A DNA stretch of 59,364 nucleotides, from the NCBI GenBank assembly GCA_026692845.1, contig JAPLNM010000030.1:1-59364 (forward strand). Reading direction: 5' to 3'. This stretch comes from Planctomycetota bacterium. GTDB taxonomy: Bacteria; Planctomycetota; Planctomycetia; Pirellulales; Pirellulaceae. The translations under genes were made by a program, and so were the position numbers. Shown in pieces: positions 2,419 to 49,541 of this stretch; the stretch's first letter is position 1; each line of letters begins with the position of its first letter. The notes beneath the pieces were generated by a model, which worked only from the letters and a program-made list of their open reading frames with translations, was not told where the DNA came from and did no database searches.

Positions 2419-4514
2419 AAGATAATCTTTACTTCGTCCGAATGGTCGATGTAGTCGAAACGCGCAACCAGAAAAGTATTGACCTTTTCAATCTAAAGAA
2501 AACTTCGACCAACACTCTCCTTATCGAAAATGTAGCCAAAGCGATTGGCGGACACCCGAAGCCCTGCGTTTCTGGTAGCGACGGGCACTCAATAGACTCC
2601 TTCAAGACATGGCGCGCTGACACCGCCATGCGGAAAACCTGGATTAAAGCTGACCCTACTTTCGAAGGTCTTCGCCAAATTCTCTTTGAGCCGATTGCGC
2701 GCGTGCGGGTGCAAGAAACAAGTCCCGCCGCAGGCTATACCAAACCCTTCGTCAGCACGGTTTCTGTCGTGCGAGAGTTTTCGCCTTTCCCACCAAACCC
2801 GCAATATGAAAATCCTCGATTCGGTCAAGAGGTTGGGATTAATCTCAATAGCGACCTTGTCTGCGTCATCGGTGGGCGCGGAACGGGTAAAAGCTGCTTC
2901 GTGGATTACCTAGGCAAATCATTCGGTCCAGCCTCCAAAGCGTCACCCTACGTTCCGAGCGAGCATTTCAGATTTGTTTTTAACAAGGACCTGGAGAGCA
3001 CAACGACGCACCACGCCAAAGAGGGTGCGGAACTTCCCTTCGTGTATATCTCGCAAAATGAGGTAAAAACTAAAATCACAACTGGAACGGTGGGTGAAGA
3101 GATAAAGCAGATGCTTGGGGTTCAGGGCCTGTCCTTTGACCGCGACGTGGACACCAAAATCAGGAACGTCTTGTCAGAGGTCGAAAAAATTAAAACATGG
3201 TTCATGCAGACAGACGAGAAGGGCGAAACCATCTACGACCGAGAGAGAATTGATGTACAGATTGCTCGAAATCAGAGCCTACTGGATTCCATTACCACCG
3301 AGCAAAACAAGGAGAAGCTGGAACGATTCACAGCGAACGTATCCAAGATTACCGGAGCAAAGGACAAGACCCGTCGCCTTAGCGCCCTAAATGAGGAGTT
3401 GGAATCATTCAAAGCCGGCTTCGACCCTCAAGCCACTGCGGTTGATCCTAGCATTCCGGTTCTCGACATCACAGCGCAGCTTGAGGCCATCAGCCTTTTG
3501 ACGAAGCAGGCGGGCGCAGAAATTGTGGCTTGCGAAGCGGACAATACGAAGATTCGCGACGGCTTCGCTCTGGTTTACACAGGTGACCTTTCGGGCCTCT
3601 TGCAGAACGCCGAGTCCTATAGAAGCATGATCGAGAAGTTGAAAGCGAACCTCCTTATTATCAAGGAAAAGCGAAAGGAACTCGACGAGGCAGTAGCCAA
3701 ACGGGCAACCATCTCGAAGCTGATTGAGGCGGAGATCACGCGACAGAAGGATGCCATCGATTTCAGATGGAAGGCTATCCAACAGGGACAACCGGATTGG
3801 ACTCAGGAGCAGAAGGACCTGATGAAGAGAATCCTTGCTGATCGTCAAATTACCCTAGAAGGTCGGATAATTTTTGATGAGTTGGTGTTCCTCACGCGAT
3901 TGAAGAATGTCCTTAACCTTCGGTCGTTTCGTGCAACCGCGGAACTCACTATTGATGATCGAGTCCGGGAGGAGTTTAAAATTACCGATCCGGCATCGTT
4001 TCTAAACTTTATGCAAGACCGCCTGGATCAAATCGAGAGTGAAGCTTTTGTCTCGGGAGATATTGTGTCATTATTTTACGACGTCGCACAACGATCGGCA
4101 TTCCTTCGGGTCGAGCCAGTGATTAAATACGGAGGCCGCCCTCTCGATCGTCTCTCTGTCGGTCAGAAAGGAACGGTTTATCTCTGCCTCAAGCTGGCAA
4201 CCCAAGCGTTCACACAACCCTTGATTTTCGATCAGCCTGAGGATGACCTCGATAACGAGTTCATAATCGACGAACTGGTCGAAATCTTCCGCAGCATAAA
4301 AAAGTTTCGGCAGGTAATACTCGTAACGCACAACGCAAACCTAGTTGTGAATGCAGACGCCGAGCAAGTTGTCGTCGCTGAAAACACCAACGGAGTATTG
4401 AAATACACATCTGGAAGTTTGGAGGCCGAAGTGACAAACAAGGCGGTTCGCAGGATTCTTGAAGGGGGTGACGAGGCATTTTTGAAGCGCGAGCTTCGCT
4501 ATAACTTAAAATAG
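2406..4514 (+). CDS. TrlF-like AAA/SMC-type ATPase, N-terminally short PHP domain
   Basis: A 702-residue protein beginning at TTG 2406; the Met codon at 2442 is an alternative. Residues about 50-100 carry the end of a PHP phosphoesterase domain: SGSDGHSID, then TWIKADPTFEGLRQILFEP, a signature I know from TrlF-family proteins. A Walker A, GGRGTGKS, lies at about 156-163. A coiled, charged middle follows, then an ABC/SMC-like signature LSVGQKG, a Walker B LIFDQPEDDLD and a switch histidine in VTHNANL. In full-length TrlF proteins the PHP domain has roughly 200 more residues in front, including an N-terminal HIHT metal motif; here that DNA is occupied by the divergent gene. The ATPase looks complete, the PHP nuclease does not. 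Role inferred: nucleic-acid-related ATPase of a defence or repair type. Confidence 0.65.
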   Translation: MIHTKDNLYFVRMVDVVETRNQKSIDLFNLKKTSTNTLLIENVAKAIGGHPKPCVSGSDGHSIDSFKTWRADTAMRKTWIKADPTFEGLRQILFEPIARVRVQETSPAAGYTKPFVSTVSVVREFSPFPPNPQYENPRFGQEVGINLNSDLVCVIGGRGTGKSCFVDYLGKSFGPASKASPYVPSEHFRFVFNKDLESTTTHHAKEGAELPFVYISQNEVKTKITTGTVGEEIKQMLGVQGLSFDRDVDTKIRNVLSEVEKIKTWFMQTDEKGETIYDRERIDVQIARNQSLLDSITTEQNKEKLERFTANVSKITGAKDKTRRLSALNEELESFKAGFDPQATAVDPSIPVLDITAQLEAISLLTKQAGAEIVACEADNTKIRDGFALVYTGDLSGLLQNAESYRSMIEKLKANLLIIKEKRKELDEAVAKRATISKLIEAEITRQKDAIDFRWKAIQQGQPDWTQEQKDLMKRILADRQITLEGRIIFDELVFLTRLKNVLNLRSFRATAELTIDDRVREEFKITDPASFLNFMQDRLDQIESEAFVSGDIVSLFYDVAQRSAFLRVEPVIKYGGRPLDRLSVGQKGTVYLCLKLATQAFTQPLIFDQPEDDLDNEFIIDELVEIFRSIKKFRQVILVTHNANLVVNADAEQVVVAENTNGVLKYTSGSLEAEVTNKAVRRILEGGDEAFLKRELRYNLK

Positions 4515-4529
4515 CGAATCGCAATAATT

Positions 4530-5003
4530 ATGAAAACCGGCACCACCGAAAAAGGCCTCCAAACGCTCATCATGCGTTACCTGACCGGCGTCGATGGGCT
4601 TTCGCCCAGTGTCGCGGACCGGGTCGCCGAATTATCGCCGCTTGCAAGCGGCAGCGGCTGGATTGCTGGGTACGCAGGCTCTTACGACTGAGAGTATGCT
4701 GTGGATGTGGAACAGCTTTTAGCGTTTCTCCAAGCCACCCACCCGGACAAATATACCAAGCTCGGTATCGGCGACTCCAAGGATAAGAACGCCATGGCCT
4801 GCCAGAAGTTCTTTGTCCGCCAGCGAGGGGAGATTGCCCGGCGCGCCACGATTGAAAAAACTCGGGGTCTGTCCCCGAGTTTTTTCAATAGAGTAAGGAT
4901 CTCTACAAGATCGCTTTCGATGGGGGACGCTTTGGAGGACAAATTCGAAGCGCTAGACCAATGCTCTTCGGTCACTTGTAAAACTACCGACAGCATTCGT
5001 TGA
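4530..5003 (+). pseudogene. hsdR 5' remnant with nonsense codon, truncated at an inverted repeat
   Basis: The frame starts MKTGTTEKGLQTLIMRYLTG and runs to SGSGWIAGYAGSYD, where TGA at 4689-4691 stops it. The same frame continues as EYAVDVEQLLAFLQAT, then KFFVRQRGEIARR, the N-terminal pattern of another HsdR type. In relatives the residue at the stop is usually Arg, so a CGA to TGA change would explain it. Similarity ends at EIARR, immediately before the inverted repeat at 4851; downstream codons to 5003 are unrelated. It lies 15 bp behind the TrlF-like gene. A nonsense mutation plus loss of the rest of the gene makes it a pseudogene. Confidence 0.65.
4851..4889. terminator. Perfect 17-bp inverted repeat, terminator-like
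   Basis: The arms ATTGAAAAAACTCGGGG (4851-4867) and CCCCGAGTTTTTTCAAT (4873-4889) pair perfectly around the loop TCTGT. The GC-rich inner stem followed by six T on either strand would work as a bidirectional intrinsic terminator. It sits exactly where hsdR similarity ends, so it may also mark a recombination or insertion boundary. Confidence 0.65.
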
Positions 5004-8332: not shown

Positions 8333-8707
8333 TGAAATATCCTCCCTGGAATAGATAGGCACGGCACGGGTTTCCAACCTTGTTTGGAAACCACTCGTTG
8401 CCGTCGATTTTTGAATTATACCGAGGGAGTGCAAAAAACCCTTTTTTTGGTTCGAAATCGCGCAGTCCATTCGCGGTCGAAGAAGCCTTTGAGCTTTGTT
8501 TTGCTTGGTTTTCGAAGCCGGCTTGGGTGTCGAGTCGGTGTCCGGATTCGTTGGGTCAACGGGTCCGTTTTGTGTCAGATTCTAGATCGAAATTGGCTAT
8601 AAACGACTCAAGGGATGGTCGGTTCCTAAGAACCGACCATCCCCCGAGTACTCCCCCTGCCTCTCGTTCACAGCCTTCGCTGTACGCTTAATAAATCGAT
8701 GTTTGGA
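8333..8707. other. Intergenic region with one hairpin
   Basis: This holds the leader and promoter of the minus-strand gene ending at 6722, and the 3' side of the TolC-like gene. Apart from the hairpin at 8612-8643 I see no gene or repeat. Confidence 0.4.
8612..8643. terminator. Hairpin downstream of the TolC-like gene
   Basis: A perfect 14-bp stem, GGGATGGTCGGTTC (8612-8625) with GAACCGACCATCCC (8630-8643), loop CTAA. It stands about 65 bp beyond the stop of the minus-strand efflux gene. No long T run follows on either strand, so it is a terminator-like or 3'-stabilising hairpin rather than a clear intrinsic terminator. Confidence 0.55.
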
Positions 8708-20380: not shown

Positions 20381-20603
20381 CCAATACCGTCAAATCGGGC
20401 AATCAAAGCGGAACGGCGCAAGCCGTCCGGTGAGTCTGAATATCCAATGGTTTCCTTAGTGTTCGAGCGTGGAACACGACACTTGACCCTTCACCGGAGG
20501 GCTTGCGCCCAACCGCTTTCAAAAACCCCTCGGCATGCGCCGAAAAGCAATCAAATCCAATCTTTCCTAAAATGATCCAAATGTCGATTTGACGGTATTG
20601 GGC
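20379..20603. mobile_element. MITE-like element, family A, copy 1
   Basis: 225 bp bounded by perfect 19-bp terminal inverted repeats: GCCCAATACCGTCAAATCG (20379-20397) and its complement at 20585-20603. No coding capacity. The inner sequence (CTTCACCGGAGGGCTTGCGC, CCCTCGGCATGCGCCGAAA) is shared with the copy at 24302-24555. It would need a transposase in trans; none is in the window. Confidence 0.8.
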
Positions 20604-22515: not shown

Positions 22516-22611
22516 GTGGGATAGGCTTCCAGCCTGTCCTGAGATACGTCACATCAAGTGCTCTCTGCCCAGCCGACGGAAACTACAGGACAGACTGGAA
22601 GTCTATCCCAC
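22516..22611. mobile_element. MITE-like element, family C
   Basis: 96 bp with 26-bp terminal inverted repeats differing at two positions: the left end (22516-22541) starts GTGGGATAGGCTTCCAGC, and the right end (22586-22611) reads, on the other strand, GTGGGATAGACTTCCAGT and so on. It lies just behind the sulfatase stop. I recall this motif as very common in Rhodopirellula-type genomes. Confidence 0.75.
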
Positions 22612-46311: not shown

Positions 46312-47130
46312 CTACTGCCAACTAGCCACTGGCCTGTCTTCATGCCCTGGCGTTCCGCCAGCGTTCATCGCCATGTTGCCACCATCCATGGGAATGATTG
46401 CACCGGTGATCCAGGTTGAGGCGTCGGAGGCGAGTAAAACAGCAAGCCCCATAATGTCATTGGGCTGACCAAGTCGTCCTGTGGGAATGCCATGAAGAAA
46501 ACGGCCCTCGAGTGTTGGGTCGGACTGCATTCTTGCTGTTAAACCTGGGTTGACCACTTGTGCTGGCGTTACGCAATTGACGCGGACTCCGCGATGGCTC
46601 CATTCGGTGCTCAATTCCCGAGTCATTTGTAGGACGGCTCCCATCGCCATGCTGTAGGCGATATGTCCTCGACCCAGGGCCGTGGAGCTAGCCAGCGATC
46701 CGATGTTCATGATCGAGCCGATGCCTTGCGCCAGCATGCGCCGGCCCGCTTCTTGGCACATAGCAAATCGGCCCACAACCAAATTCTGCAACACACGATT
46801 TAGATCCGTGATCGTCAACTCCTCAGGCTTGGCCAAGTGCCCATCACCGGCAATATTTCCCAAAAAATCGACTCGTCCAAACTGGCTATCGACCCGTTGA
46901 AACAGTTCAGCGATGGATTCAGGGCAGGACACATCGGTACTTGCCACCAGCGTTTTGCGTCCGAGTCCCTGTATTTGAGTTGCAGTGGCTTCTACCCCTG
47001 ATTGATTGCGATCCACCAAAACAAGATCCGCTCCGTGCTCGGCAAGCGCCACAGCGGTGGCTCGACCCAAACCTTGCGCAGCGCCGGACACGACGGCGAC
47101 TCGACCAGTCAGATCAAACAGTTTCATCAT
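46312..47130 (-). CDS. SDR-family oxidoreductase with catalytic Lys replaced by Met
   Basis: 272 residues from ATG 47130 (AAGAGA just upstream; ATG 47151 is also possible). Classical SDR: cofactor loop VVSGAAQGLGRATA, acidic LVLVDRN, NIAG, catalytic Ser in NIGSLASSTALG, then IAYSMAMGAVLQMTREL where YxxxK is expected. Tyr is present (residue 159) but the lysine position (163) is Met, codon ATG at 46644-46642. Also C-terminal ASTWITGAIIPMDGG. Related enzymes oxidise sugar acids or keto-deoxy acids, for example 2-keto-3-deoxy-fuconate 4-dehydrogenase. Loss of the lysine would normally disable hydride transfer. It lies between the E1 gene and the GxxExxY cassette. Confidence 0.85.
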   Translation of the reverse strand: MMKLFDLTGRVAVVSGAAQGLGRATAVALAEHGADLVLVDRNQSGVEATATQIQGLGRKTLVASTDVSCPESIAELFQRVDSQFGRVDFLGNIAGDGHLAKPEELTITDLNRVLQNLVVGRFAMCQEAGRRMLAQGIGSIMNIGSLASSTALGRGHIAYSMAMGAVLQMTRELSTEWSHRGVRVNCVTPAQVVNPGLTARMQSDPTLEGRFLHGIPTGRLGQPNDIMGLAVLLASDASTWITGAIIPMDGGNMAMNAGGTPGHEDRPVASWQ

Positions 47131-47153
47131 CGTCTCTTTCACGTTCCCCATAC

Positions 47154-47183
47154 TTTTCCCGTACTTACTTTTCCCGTACTTAC
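47154..47183. repeat. 15-bp tandem repeat beside hairpin D1
   Basis: The unit TTTTCCCGTACTTAC occurs twice, at 47154-47168 and 47169-47183, followed by a partial copy (TTTCCCC) running into the hairpin. It lies just upstream of the SDR start. Confidence 0.7.
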
Positions 47184-47190
47184 TTTCCCC

Positions 47191-47268
47191 ATCTGTGCTC
47201 CGGCTTTGCCATCTGTGCTATCGACTTCGGGAGGCAAATAGCACAGATGGCAAGGCCGGAGCACAGAT
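47191..47268. repeat. 78-bp long hairpin D1, left flank of the GxxExxY gene
   Basis: The arm at 47191-47221 (starting ATCTGTGCTCCGGCTTTG) pairs with 47238-47268 over 31 bp with a single G.T position; the loop is CGACTTCGGGAGGCAA. Five bases separate it from the GxxExxY stop codon. A near copy in the same orientation lies at 48124-48201. Confidence 0.9.
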
Positions 47269-47273
47269 AAAAG

Positions 47274-48074
47274 CTACTTCTTTGCGTACCTCAGTGCGGT
47301 TATCTGACATTCTTTGATGCCGAAGTTCGCAGCAACTCCCCAAGGGGTATTGAGCGTCTTCATGTGCGACAGTCCAAGGCTTTTGGCGAATTCGTTGCTC
47401 TCGAAGTGCGCCGTAACGGTTATCACGAACTTCCCTGCCACCACAATGCACTCCAGAGCACTTTCATGAACGACCTGTTTTTGAAAAATGGCCGGCGCGA
47501 TCGGCCGCACCGATACGTCGAGCTGACATAGCGATAGGGCCGTGAGCAGCAAACGCTCTGTGATCGGCAAGCTGTATCCTGTGCGATGCTCTGTGTAGAC
47601 CAAATGTAGCGCGTTGCGGATCGCGATCCCAACGTCACGGTCCGATCCTTCGATGTGGTTTGCCCAATAGGAAAAGTCCTCAGCAAGAGTCGTTTCGACT
47701 GGATCGAGGATTCGTCTTTCTACTTGTACGCGGTCGAGTCCCATGTTGACGAGGAGCCCCAAACGACTACGCCGGGCTCGCAAGTAGTCGAATAACTGCA
47801 ATGTTTCCGATGGTCCAATCGCTCTCGGTAACGCCTTGAGTTCGACGACGATCTCGTCCCAGCCCACAAAATCCGGGTAGAGCGTGTGCGCCCTCCGATC
47901 TCGGATCCGCAATTGCACCGGAGGTTTGCTTGCAATCGGTAGTCGCTGTTCATGGGTCCAAATCTCGAACGCACGCTGATAGGCCTCCTCGTTTCGCCCG
48001 AGTCCAACTTCATTTTGCACCGCAAAGAAGCCACCGATGAGTTGTTTGGTTTTTTCGACCAAAAAGTATTCCAT
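47274..48074 (-). CDS. GxxExxY protein, apparently two-domain
   Basis: 266 residues from ATG 48074; longer frames run back through the repeats and are not credible. The first half is a GxxExxY domain: IGGFFAVQNEVGLGRNEEAYQRAFE, with PD-(D/E)xK-like residues in LYPDFVGWDEIVVELKAL, then RLGLLVNMGLDRVQVERRI. The second half repeats the plan loosely: IAIRNALHLVYTEHRTGY, ALECIVVAGKFVITVTA, MKTLNTPWGVAANFGIKECQITALRY, without the catalytic-looking acidic-x-Lys. GxxExxY proteins are widespread, multicopy and of unknown function; a nuclease-like fold is suspected. The gene interrupts an otherwise collinear run of metabolic genes and is framed by hairpins D1 and D2, which suggests a mobile cassette. 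Confidence 0.8.
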   Translation of the reverse strand: MEYFLVEKTKQLIGGFFAVQNEVGLGRNEEAYQRAFEIWTHEQRLPIASKPPVQLRIRDRRAHTLYPDFVGWDEIVVELKALPRAIGPSETLQLFDYLRARRSRLGLLVNMGLDRVQVERRILDPVETTLAEDFSYWANHIEGSDRDVGIAIRNALHLVYTEHRTGYSLPITERLLLTALSLCQLDVSVRPIAPAIFQKQVVHESALECIVVAGKFVITVTAHFESNEFAKSLGLSHMKTLNTPWGVAANFGIKECQITALRYAKK

Positions 48075-48096
48075 TCTTATTTCTCCCACTTGTTTC

Positions 48097-48120
48097 CCCA
48101 TCTGCTTGCCCATCTGCTTG
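48097..48120. repeat. 12-bp tandem repeat beside hairpin D2
   Basis: The unit CCCATCTGCTTG occurs twice, 48097-48108 and 48109-48120, then merges into the hairpin arm as CCCATCTG. It lies in the leader of the GxxExxY gene, so copy number changes would alter the distance between promoter and start codon. Confidence 0.7.
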
Positions 48121-48123
48121 CCC

Positions 48124-48201
48124 ATCTGTGCTCCGGCTTTGCTATCTGTGCTATCGACTTCGGGAGGTGAGTAGCACAGATGGCAAGGCCGGAGCACAGA
48201 T
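48124..48201. repeat. 78-bp long hairpin D2, right flank of the GxxExxY gene
   Basis: The arms 48124-48154 and 48171-48201 pair over 31 bp; all three deviations are G.T pairs. Loop CGACTTCGGGAGGTGA differs from D1 at two bases. It is in the same orientation as D1, giving direct repeats around the gene. Further GAGCACAGA and ACACAGATAAG copies follow to about 48225. Confidence 0.9.
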
Positions 48202-48260
48202 ATGTTAAGGAGCACAGACACAGATAAGTCGGCGCGTGGATACGCAGAGGGAACAGACGG

Positions 48261-49541
48261 TTATTCATTGTCGGGACTCCAGCTTCTTAAGGCAGTTGCT
48301 GTGAGCAGGCTGCCGAAGATCAGAATTGCCGCCATCGACCAGAGTCCCATCAGTCCAAGTATGGAAGCTCCAAAGAAGCCGCCGATGTTGGCTACGGAGT
48401 TGATCAGCGCGATGCCCCCGGCGGCTGCAACTCCGGAAAGGAATACACCGGGTAGCGTCCAGAAAACAGGCAACATGCTCATCATGCCCGATTGAGCAAG
48501 ACACAACCCGACCATTGCAACTAGCGGAGTTGGCCCCCAGGCGACAATCGCCCATCCAATCGCCGCCGCTAAGGCCGAACCGGCTAGGTGCCAACGCCGT
48601 TCACCCGTTCGGTCGGAGCTAATTCCAACCAATGCCATGGCAATAATCGCACACAAATGCGGCAGCGCGGTGAGCAATCCGATCTGCACGTTGGTAGCAC
48701 CCTGGTATTGTTCTTTGATCAATGTCGGAAAGTAAGCACTTCCCGCATTGGTGCCGACGGCCACCGTAAAATAAATCGCAATCAGCAACCAGACGCGCGG
48801 CTGAAGCATCGCTTGCCAACGATCGGGCCCATGTTTCTCACGCCGGACACGATCTTCTTCGGCAAGATGATCGACCAACCAGCGACGTTGATCGTCGCGA
48901 AGCCATCGAGCGTCATGCGGAGAGTCCTGCAGATAAAACAAGACCGCGACACCTACCAAAGACGTCGGCAATCCTTCTAGCAGAAATAGCCATTGCCAAC
49001 CGTGCAAGCCGCTCAGGCCGTTGAAGTGATCCATGATCCAGCCTGATAACGGGTTGCCCAATACATTCGAAAGGCCTATGGCAAGCATGAAGAATGCAGT
49101 CATCTTGGCTCGCTGCCGATCGGGAAACCAGTAGCTCAGGTAGAGAATGATCCCTGGAAAAAAGCCGGCTTCCGCAATACCTAGCAGGATACGCAGCGCG
49201 TAGAACGTCCATAGGTCGCTAGCGAACATTGTTGCAGCCGAGACCAGTCCCCAAGTGATCATGATCCGCGCCATCCAGCGCCTTGCGCCAAACTTTTGCA
49301 TCAGCAGATTGCTAGGCACTTCGAAAAGAAGGTAGCCCAGGTAGAACATCCCAAAGCCGAGGTCAAACGCGGCTTTGCTCAGCCCTAGATCGTCCTGCAT
49401 CGCCAAACGCGCAAAGCCAACATTCGCCCGATCGAGTATATTCAGCACATACAGCAGGCATATGAATGGCACGATCCGCCAAGCAACCGTGCGAAGCGTC
49501 GAAGAAGGGAGTAGATCCTGATTTTCATTCATCTTTGCCAC
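48261..49541 (-). CDS. MFS transporter, ACS type
   Basis: 426 residues, 12 hydrophobic helices. YVLNILDRANVGFARLAMQDDLGLSKAAFDLGFGMFYLGYLLFEVPSNLLMQKFGARRWMARIMITWG and RILLGIAEAGFFPGIILYLSYWFPDRQRAK place it in the anion:cation symporter group, similar to phthalate, tartrate or hexuronate importers. AGGAGGAAA lies before both a GTG (49541) and an ATG (49532); either may be the start. It is the second ACS importer in the cluster (the other at 40.1 kb), here placed with the cyclase, FAH and oxidase genes. Confidence 0.87.
   Translation of the reverse strand: MAKMNENQDLLPSSTLRTVAWRIVPFICLLYVLNILDRANVGFARLAMQDDLGLSKAAFDLGFGMFYLGYLLFEVPSNLLMQKFGARRWMARIMITWGLVSAATMFASDLWTFYALRILLGIAEAGFFPGIILYLSYWFPDRQRAKMTAFFMLAIGLSNVLGNPLSGWIMDHFNGLSGLHGWQWLFLLEGLPTSLVGVAVLFYLQDSPHDARWLRDDQRRWLVDHLAEEDRVRREKHGPDRWQAMLQPRVWLLIAIYFTVAVGTNAGSAYFPTLIKEQYQGATNVQIGLLTALPHLCAIIAMALVGISSDRTGERRWHLAGSALAAAIGWAIVAWGPTPLVAMVGLCLAQSGMMSMLPVFWTLPGVFLSGVAAAGGIALINSVANIGGFFGASILGLMGLWSMAAILIFGSLLTATALRSWSPDNE

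Follow-up and report, generated by a model that had tools for sequence, protein, structure and literature searches.

Among described systems, the intervening sequences (IVSs) of 23S rRNA come closest in anatomy to the locus analysed here. The accessible part of PMC4990558 describes the Coxiella IVS as a 444-nt insertion with an S23 open reading frame (ORF) and a 28-bp terminal stem, which is cut by RNase III, and treats the mobility of such sequences as suspected but unproven. REPtrons and TIRtrons, as presented in the available portion of PMC3733652, resemble the locus in that a gene is framed by inverted repeats which also occur as gene-less copies in spacers, but the protein there is a Y1/HUH transposase, whereas here it belongs to the PD-(D/E)XK superfamily and the arms are arrays of short words. 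Spacer repeats built from 7-nt tandem words are reported from Xanthomonas and Nostoc, often as convergent pairs in Xanthomonas (PMC4692102, in its accessible sections), and from Beggiatoaceae, where the word is TAACTGA (PMC4679880, likewise). The GxxExxY protein family is mentioned in the available text of PMC8934634 in connection with a cas4-like gene beside a reverse transcriptase, and the literature searched, which covered few subscription papers and few bioRxiv preprints, gives no function for it. Titles and abstract openings on four-helix or S23 genes, heptamers, inverted-repeat elements and planctomycete repeats contain no report of a link between a gene and a word array.

The window, that is, the whole stretch of 59,364 nt that was analysed, comes from a Planctomycetota bacterium of the Pirellulaceae (contig JAPLNM010000030.1). 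The element lies in an operon of MFS, SDR, E1 and E2 genes, upstream of which are genes for a cyclase and an FAA hydrolase; all are on the minus strand. The first-pass annotation of this DNA had described the flanking MFS, SDR, E1 and E2 genes as collinear on that strand, and the identities of the neighbours were checked and agree. The features at the junction are the following:

48261–49541, minus strand: MFS transporter gene, the 5'-side neighbour (PF07690)
48124–48201, no strand assigned: hairpin 5' of the gene (inner arm 48124–48153, outer arm 48172–48201)
48097–48128, no strand assigned: tandem array of a 12-nt unit, 2.7 copies, growing from the hairpin end
47274–48074, minus strand: GxxExxY gene, 266 aa from ATG (MEYFLVEK...), above cut-off for TIGR04256 and PF13366
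47700–48074, minus strand: N-terminal domain with intact PD-(D/E)XK residues (GxxExxY, D, ExK, QxxxY), from invariant columns
47274–47666, minus strand: C-terminal half, a probable degenerate second PDDEXK_3 domain, from a weak collinear match
47191–47268, no strand assigned: hairpin 3' of the gene (inner arm 47238–47268, outer arm 47191–47221)
47151–47190, no strand assigned: tandem array of a 15-nt unit, 2.7 copies, between the hairpin and the SDR start
46312–47151, minus strand: SDR gene, the 3'-side neighbour (PF13561)
47238–48153, minus strand: proposed core element (inner arm, gene, inner arm; the outer arms would be extra)

The 3'-side hairpin has arms of 31 nt that are 97% complementary, and the 5'-side hairpin has arms of 30 nt with 93% complementarity; both run in the same direction and share 94% identity across 85 nt. 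Six arm pairs of at least 20 nt, allowing no more than 2 mismatches and loops of 3–60 nt, were found in the whole window, two of them being the gene-flanking hairpins, and eight Markov-1 controls of the whole window yielded none at these settings. The hairpins, the gene and the short tandem arrays are confirmed as real and in excess of chance. Complementarity, controls and profile scores agree with the earlier description of two hairpins of shared orientation enclosing a GxxExxY gene, and the arrays of 15-bp and 12-bp units named there were recovered at the copy numbers listed. The 12-nt array was not seen at the corresponding place in four orthologous loci (L012–L015, see below); L015 carries arrays of different units, 10 nt and 21 nt, at that place, from which it appears that slippage at the hairpin ends continues. 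Rfam returned only generic miRNA-type hairpin matches for the window, every one under its gathering score. Elsewhere in the window, two more long hairpins with different arms and loops of 56–57 nt lie in intergenic spacers (20414–20510 and 22516–22611), and two hairpins with short loops and arms of at least 20 nt occur at 4847–4893 and 8606–8649.

When the genome of origin (5.24 Mb in 182 contigs, 96% complete) was searched on both strands, the hairpin was found only at its two gene-flanking places in the window. The objection that such hairpins are scattered at random in spacers therefore fails.

The strand on which the stems would be read as RNA deserves attention. The first-pass annotation stated that every deviation from pairing is a G.T pair, which holds for the plus strand; on the minus strand, which is the operon strand, the alignment places C.A pairs there. 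The operon transcript has the sequence of the minus strand, and the accompanying argument that G.T pairing preserves the stem in operon RNA is therefore not supported. Folding of this strand is nevertheless strong, at −59.7 kcal/mol (z −13.0) and −50.3 kcal/mol (z −9.7) for the two hairpins. The plus strand of the two hairpins folds at −61.3 and −62.5 kcal/mol. Across ten hairpins from five genomes, 92% of cells stay paired, 14 of 31 pairs are invariant and only 2 changed on both sides; covariation in this set is not above that of shuffles and gives an RNA stem in the window no support. Compensatory changes thus give no proof of such a stem. Concerted evolution of the two hairpins was considered and rejected, because their identity within a genome (77–95%) is not clearly above that between genomes (69–97%). 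In L012, the two hairpins (2240–2330 and 3154–3250) have loops that are mutually reverse complement, so one of them has apparently been flipped.

The window protein scores 88.2 bits against TIGR04256 (cut-off 35) and 83.3 bits against PF13366 (cut-off 22); in-frame starts farther upstream are possible. Its N-terminal domain keeps the residues that are invariant across 24 family members, the window protein included, among them G, G, E, Y, D, E-x-K and Q-x3-Y. With these residues of the PD-(D/E)XK superfamily in place, the protein is a predicted nuclease, and the QxxxY motif together with the PD-(D/E)XK core fits the pattern of Cas4/RecB-type nucleases. The C-terminal half aligns collinearly with positions 5–108 of 117 of PDDEXK_3 at E 0.011 (E 0.0062 in L014), both below cut-off, and hhalign gives E 0.0037 with a probability of only 8.9%; two domains have probably been fused in this protein, the second of them degenerate. 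The ratio dN/dS is 0.06–0.30 for the whole gene over all ten pairs of five orthologues and 0.05–0.36 for the separate halves, low in both; these values indicate purifying selection on the gene, whose catalytic residues are preserved. PADLOC returned a weak Csx10-like match for the window (E 0.0044) and weak Cas4-like matches for a relative, L025 (E 0.006–0.018). An AlphaFold model built from the five orthologues had a mean pLDDT of 39 and was discarded, and a search of solved structures gave a single match that is not credible (E 0.5).

Comparison with relatives clarifies how the gene came to its place. Four orthologues on genome contigs (L012–L015) share 84–93% protein identity, and the order MFS, hairpin, gene, hairpin, SDR is the same in these and the window, although in L014 and L015 the 5' hairpin is partly truncated. 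Sixteen regions from the genus were fetched by SDR similarity, of which three are the contigs of L012, L013 and L015. Adjacent MFS and SDR genes without the GxxExxY gene occur in 5 of the 16 (L075, L077, L078, L079 and L080), where the gap between the MFS and SDR matches is 14 nt in L075 and L077, 25 nt in L079 and about 150 nt in L078 and L080; one region is a contig-end piece (L076), and seven (L081–L087) have no MFS match, some of them ending near the SDR gene. The junction of L078 holds a different hairpin, gene-less and with ACAGATT words. The first-pass proposal of a cassette set between the MFS and SDR genes is upheld by five filled loci against five collinear empty junctions, and the gene is not universal at this place.

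In a tree of MFS plus SDR for ten loci, the five filled loci fall on one side with a FastTree support of 0.990 and an IQ-TREE ultrafast bootstrap of only 67%, which leaves room for loss. Given five filled loci and five empty collinear operons, the simplest reading is one insertion in one clade, and the element is best read as having been inserted once between MFS and SDR there. We consider it probable that gene and hairpins together make up a single compact element of the GxxExxY kind, bounded by inverted repeats, which entered this junction once in an ancestor of the clade and has been kept since. The junction and its surroundings hold other repeats as well. The MFS–SDR spacer of L080 contains another short palindromic repeat of the ACGGACTGGAAGTCCGT type, as if the junction collected hairpins, and upstream of SDR in L081, L082 and L084 there are inverted pairs of GTACGAGTACGAG-like word arrays, another type of word-array hairpin.

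A different account of the same conservation is that this is a regulated functional gene, for example a defence or DNA-repair nuclease, with the hairpins as processing or attenuation signals of its own mRNA and the presence and absence pattern a product of ordinary loss and transfer. Purifying selection in both halves, strong folding and the retention of hairpins in all five orthologues, partial truncation in two of them included, are consistent with this account. It appears rather improbable to us, as it leaves unexplained the matching of arms within each element, the arms-only copies and the separate cargo with its own word length, all described below, and as PADLOC gave only the weak matches mentioned above for a defence role.

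The wider family was surveyed with an arm test, which takes the best local inverted match between 300 nt upstream and 300 nt downstream of a gene and sets its score against the 99% point obtained with mononucleotide-shuffled versions of the upstream segment. The test covered the best-scoring loci of each search and 40 lower-scoring listed loci, rather than all matches. Inverted arms, of which ACCACAGAGACACAGAGCACACAGAG ... CTCTGTGTCCTCTGTGTCTCTGTGGT is an example, flank 87 of 91 planctomycete GxxExxY loci (100 examined, 9 contig-edge loci dropped). These comprise 28/28 of the top 30 loci of the order (2 edge loci dropped), 22/25 of the top 30 of the phylum (5 dropped; misses L104, L112 and L117) and 37/38 of the 40 lower-scoring loci of the order (2 dropped; miss L301). 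In the single control family used, ParE toxins of the same order, none of 24 loci passed (30 examined, 6 dropped). A first run with slightly different thresholds had given 23/25 and 24/28. The association of repeats with a nuclease-like gene, which the earlier reading had proposed for this locus, thus holds in a wider form, with inverted arms tied to the GxxExxY family, members of which score above cut-off in 102 of 196 genomes of the order searched.

Among plasmid loci of other phyla, 5 of 7 passed (7 read of 8 records matched), the failures being L212 from Treponema and L213 from Fusobacteria; L214 from Persicobacter passed weakly, with a score of 15 that 3 of 200 of its own shuffles reached. 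Plasmid-borne GxxExxY genes lie beside radA in Bacteroides finegoldii, between fabD and fabG in Sphingomonas, and also occur in Bernardetia. Two IMG/VR loci, found by a profile scan after a single-protein scan gave none, both passed, and a phage search at E 1e-5 gave no match. At a stricter score of 16, the counts for order top, phylum, order lower and plasmids are 28/28, 22/25, 34/38 and 4/7. The median score is 24, 25 and 23 for arms of one element and 13, 12 and 11 for arms of different elements; 34%, 27% and 9% of mismatched pairs score at least 16, because spelling is shared among elements.

The arms consist of about three words of 8–10 nt. Of 84 planctomycete GxxExxY arms scoring at least 16, 75 have their best self-lag at 8–10 nt and 2 have it at 7 nt. 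Fifty elements (53 scored, 3 below 16) measure 422–672 nt, with a median of 472 nt; their ends read A-CCAC, and no target-site duplication beyond that of mismatched flanks was found in these 50, a set to which the window copy does not belong. The words have the polarity A[gene]a in 56 of 100 GxxExxY loci and the reverse in 1, while 15 have no arm of that spelling and 28 have one arm only or other arrangements. Insertion sequences and MITEs have terminal inverted repeats, and internally deleted copies of them occur. The elements described here differ from them in carrying no transposase, in the target-site duplication not being found and in an arm spelling that varies by element. The 23S rRNA IVSs, in the available part of PMC4990558, likewise measure about 440 nt, hold a single ORF and end in terminal inverted repeats of about 28 bp. 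At the loci examined, however, GxxExxY elements lie between protein genes, encode a nuclease-like ORF and have arms of 8–10-nt words. The window copy follows this pattern, lying between MFS and SDR and not in a 23S rRNA helix, and its ORF is GxxExxY and not an S23 four-helix bundle.

Within the family, the window copy is unusual. Its inner arms read CACAGAT..CACAGAT before the gene and ATCTGTG..ATCTGTG after it, so inverted arms with CAC-GA words face the gene in the family polarity. Instead of three words at a period of 8–10 nt, each arm has two words 20 nt apart, with a self-match of 0.90 at lag 20 and 0.10 at lag 10, which makes the window a divergent relative by word period. Perhaps its arm is a variant with an unrecognisable middle word. 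Each end is doubled into an outer and an inner arm, and this may be a trace of tandem copies. The nearest likeness is found in Gemmatirosa, where a full hairpin stands on either side of a frame-broken gene. The appearance of the locus is that of a domesticated, or at the least long-kept, element and not of an active one; we read the window copy as an old, selected member of the GxxExxY elements. The same genome has a second GxxExxY gene (L005) located among CACAGAG arms and a third (L006) that starts 50 nt from a contig end, with no arms seen. As a clean empty site for the second element, L256 was rejected: the left arm is common and the sequence then diverges. In L255 and L256, the common left arm stands directly after the same stop codon and is followed by divergence, as would be seen if recombination had taken place at the arm.

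Gene-less forms were followed at one site and in one genome. In one family, 43 genomes were searched at pyrH–frr, 41 had an frr match and 30 loci were read and classed by eye. An intact element is present in 2 of the 30 (L178, L207), a truncated gene in 1 (L195) and arms-only shells in 4 (L183, L184, L185, L187); short-loop hairpins of the window polarity stand in 3 (L199, L200, L205), single-arm or faded relics in 5 (L188, L189, L190, L198, L206), other hairpins in 5 (L179, L191, L201–L203) and short or plain spacers in 10. The site is polymorphic, with gene and arms, truncated gene, arms only, or none. In 800 kb of one genome, read as two 400-kb blocks of which the second was chosen to include a known element, there are 26 three-word arms, whereas each block, when shuffled once and when reversed once as controls, gave none. 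Eighteen of the 26 form nine A..A' pairs; one pair encloses the GxxExxY gene, and the arms of the other eight, 33–195 nt apart, are too close for it.

Such copies suit a reading in which a host-dependent, gene-less hairpin family of MITE or REP-like kind is primary, and the GxxExxY and four-helix genes are passengers that settled in hairpins or were captured by them. The eight gene-less pairs against one gene-bearing pair in the 800 kb, the short-loop hairpins at pyrH–frr and the gene-less hairpin at the MFS–SDR junction of L078 all point in that direction. The shells may also arise by gene decay, as the truncated gene in L195 and the shells in L183–L187 suggest, and the dependence of word length on cargo (7 nt or 8–10 nt, see below) is not what would be expected of passengers in a common hairpin pool. 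We therefore hold this reading to be unlikely. The hairpin ends, the gene-less copies and the target-site duplication not found would also suit a REP/RAYT-type system, in which single-stranded hairpins are moved in trans by a Y1 (HUH) transposase. The first-pass annotation drew this likeness, and it survives as an analogy; by anatomy, the 23S rRNA IVS with S23 is closer. As an explanation it is highly improbable: the linked protein is PD-(D/E)XK, a Pfam search of the element's own gene gives only PDDEXK_3 and no Y1/HUH tyrosine transposase, the arms consist of word arrays ending in CCAC and are not hairpins of the GTAG type, and two places in 5.24 Mb do not make a high-copy hairpin.

Returning to the compact element as the preferred reading, a second cargo shows that its architecture is not tied to the nuclease. 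S23-like four-helix-bundle genes score above cut-off in 70 of 117 genomes of the order searched, and 26 of 28 of their loci in the order pass the arm test (30 examined, 2 dropped), 24 of 28 at score 16. In the order, all 24 arms scoring at least 16 have a best self-lag of 7 nt. On plasmids, arms were found in 10 of 10 loci read (30 records matched), from cyanobacteria (8), Gemmatirosa and Azospirillum, with lag 7 in 8 of 10. Cargo and word length are coupled, with 7 nt for four-helix genes versus 8–10 nt for GxxExxY genes. Since four-helix elements have no nuclease, the nuclease is not needed for this architecture. The build of the 23S rRNA IVSs recurs in the S23-like genes that lie outside rRNA. 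The Xanthomonas, Nostoc and Beggiatoaceae heptamers share the 7-nt word, but the accessible sections of PMC4692102 and PMC4679880 name no linked gene family, and the four-helix link comes from other genomes. One S23-like member resembles Avd (E 2.2e-11), which the available part of PMC10053308 describes as essential to the retrohoming of diversity-generating retroelements; owing to this resemblance, a reverse-transcription route is possible for the four-helix cargo. On three cyanobacterial plasmids (L327, L333, L331), four-helix genes with inverted arms lie within CRISPR operons, in two cases with 7-nt words at a cas6/cas4 junction and in the third, where the best lag is 8, between Cmr2 and Cmr3 of a type III-B system.

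Both cargoes also show a directional preference. Orientation was judged by the longest nearby ORF rather than by gene models, and only neighbour pairs of the same direction were counted. On this basis, GxxExxY genes run in the same versus the opposite direction at 49:9 (100 examined; 9 edge, 3 not assignable and 30 mixed loci outside the ratio), four-helix genes at 20:1 (30 examined; 2 edge, 7 mixed outside) and ParE controls at 5:5 (30 examined; 6 edge, 14 mixed outside). GxxExxY genes thus tend to run with the transcription of their neighbours.

We read the GxxExxY elements as IVS-like elements outside rRNA, whose movement and excision from RNA we infer. In the transcript, the arms would pair into a stem like that of the 23S rRNA IVSs, which RNase III could cut; an insert with such a stem would be tolerated inside operons in one orientation, and the observed bias in orientation would follow from this. 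At the DNA level, the word array may serve as the binding site of the element's own protein. The GxxExxY protein, as a Cas4/RecB-like nuclease, would nick or cut at the array, and repair would then copy the whole element or the arms alone.

A broader proposal is offered tentatively, as it may well not hold. The loci would belong to a phylum-spanning class of transposase-less selfish elements of about 0.45 kb, each pairing one small protein, predicted to be either a Cas4/RecB-like GxxExxY nuclease or an S23/Avd-like four-helix bundle, with its own inverted word array, and word length would follow the protein. The 23S rRNA IVSs would then be the branch that lives in rRNA, and gene-less remains of such elements would make up many of the tandem-word and hairpin repeats in bacterial spacers that lack an explanation.

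The pairing of cargo and word length offers a direct candidate substrate for the GxxExxY and S23-like proteins. It would connect the long-puzzling 23S rRNA IVSs with a far wider set of operon insertions, and it may account for orphan repeats that have been reported. If these elements move, their movement happens without a known transposase of their own.
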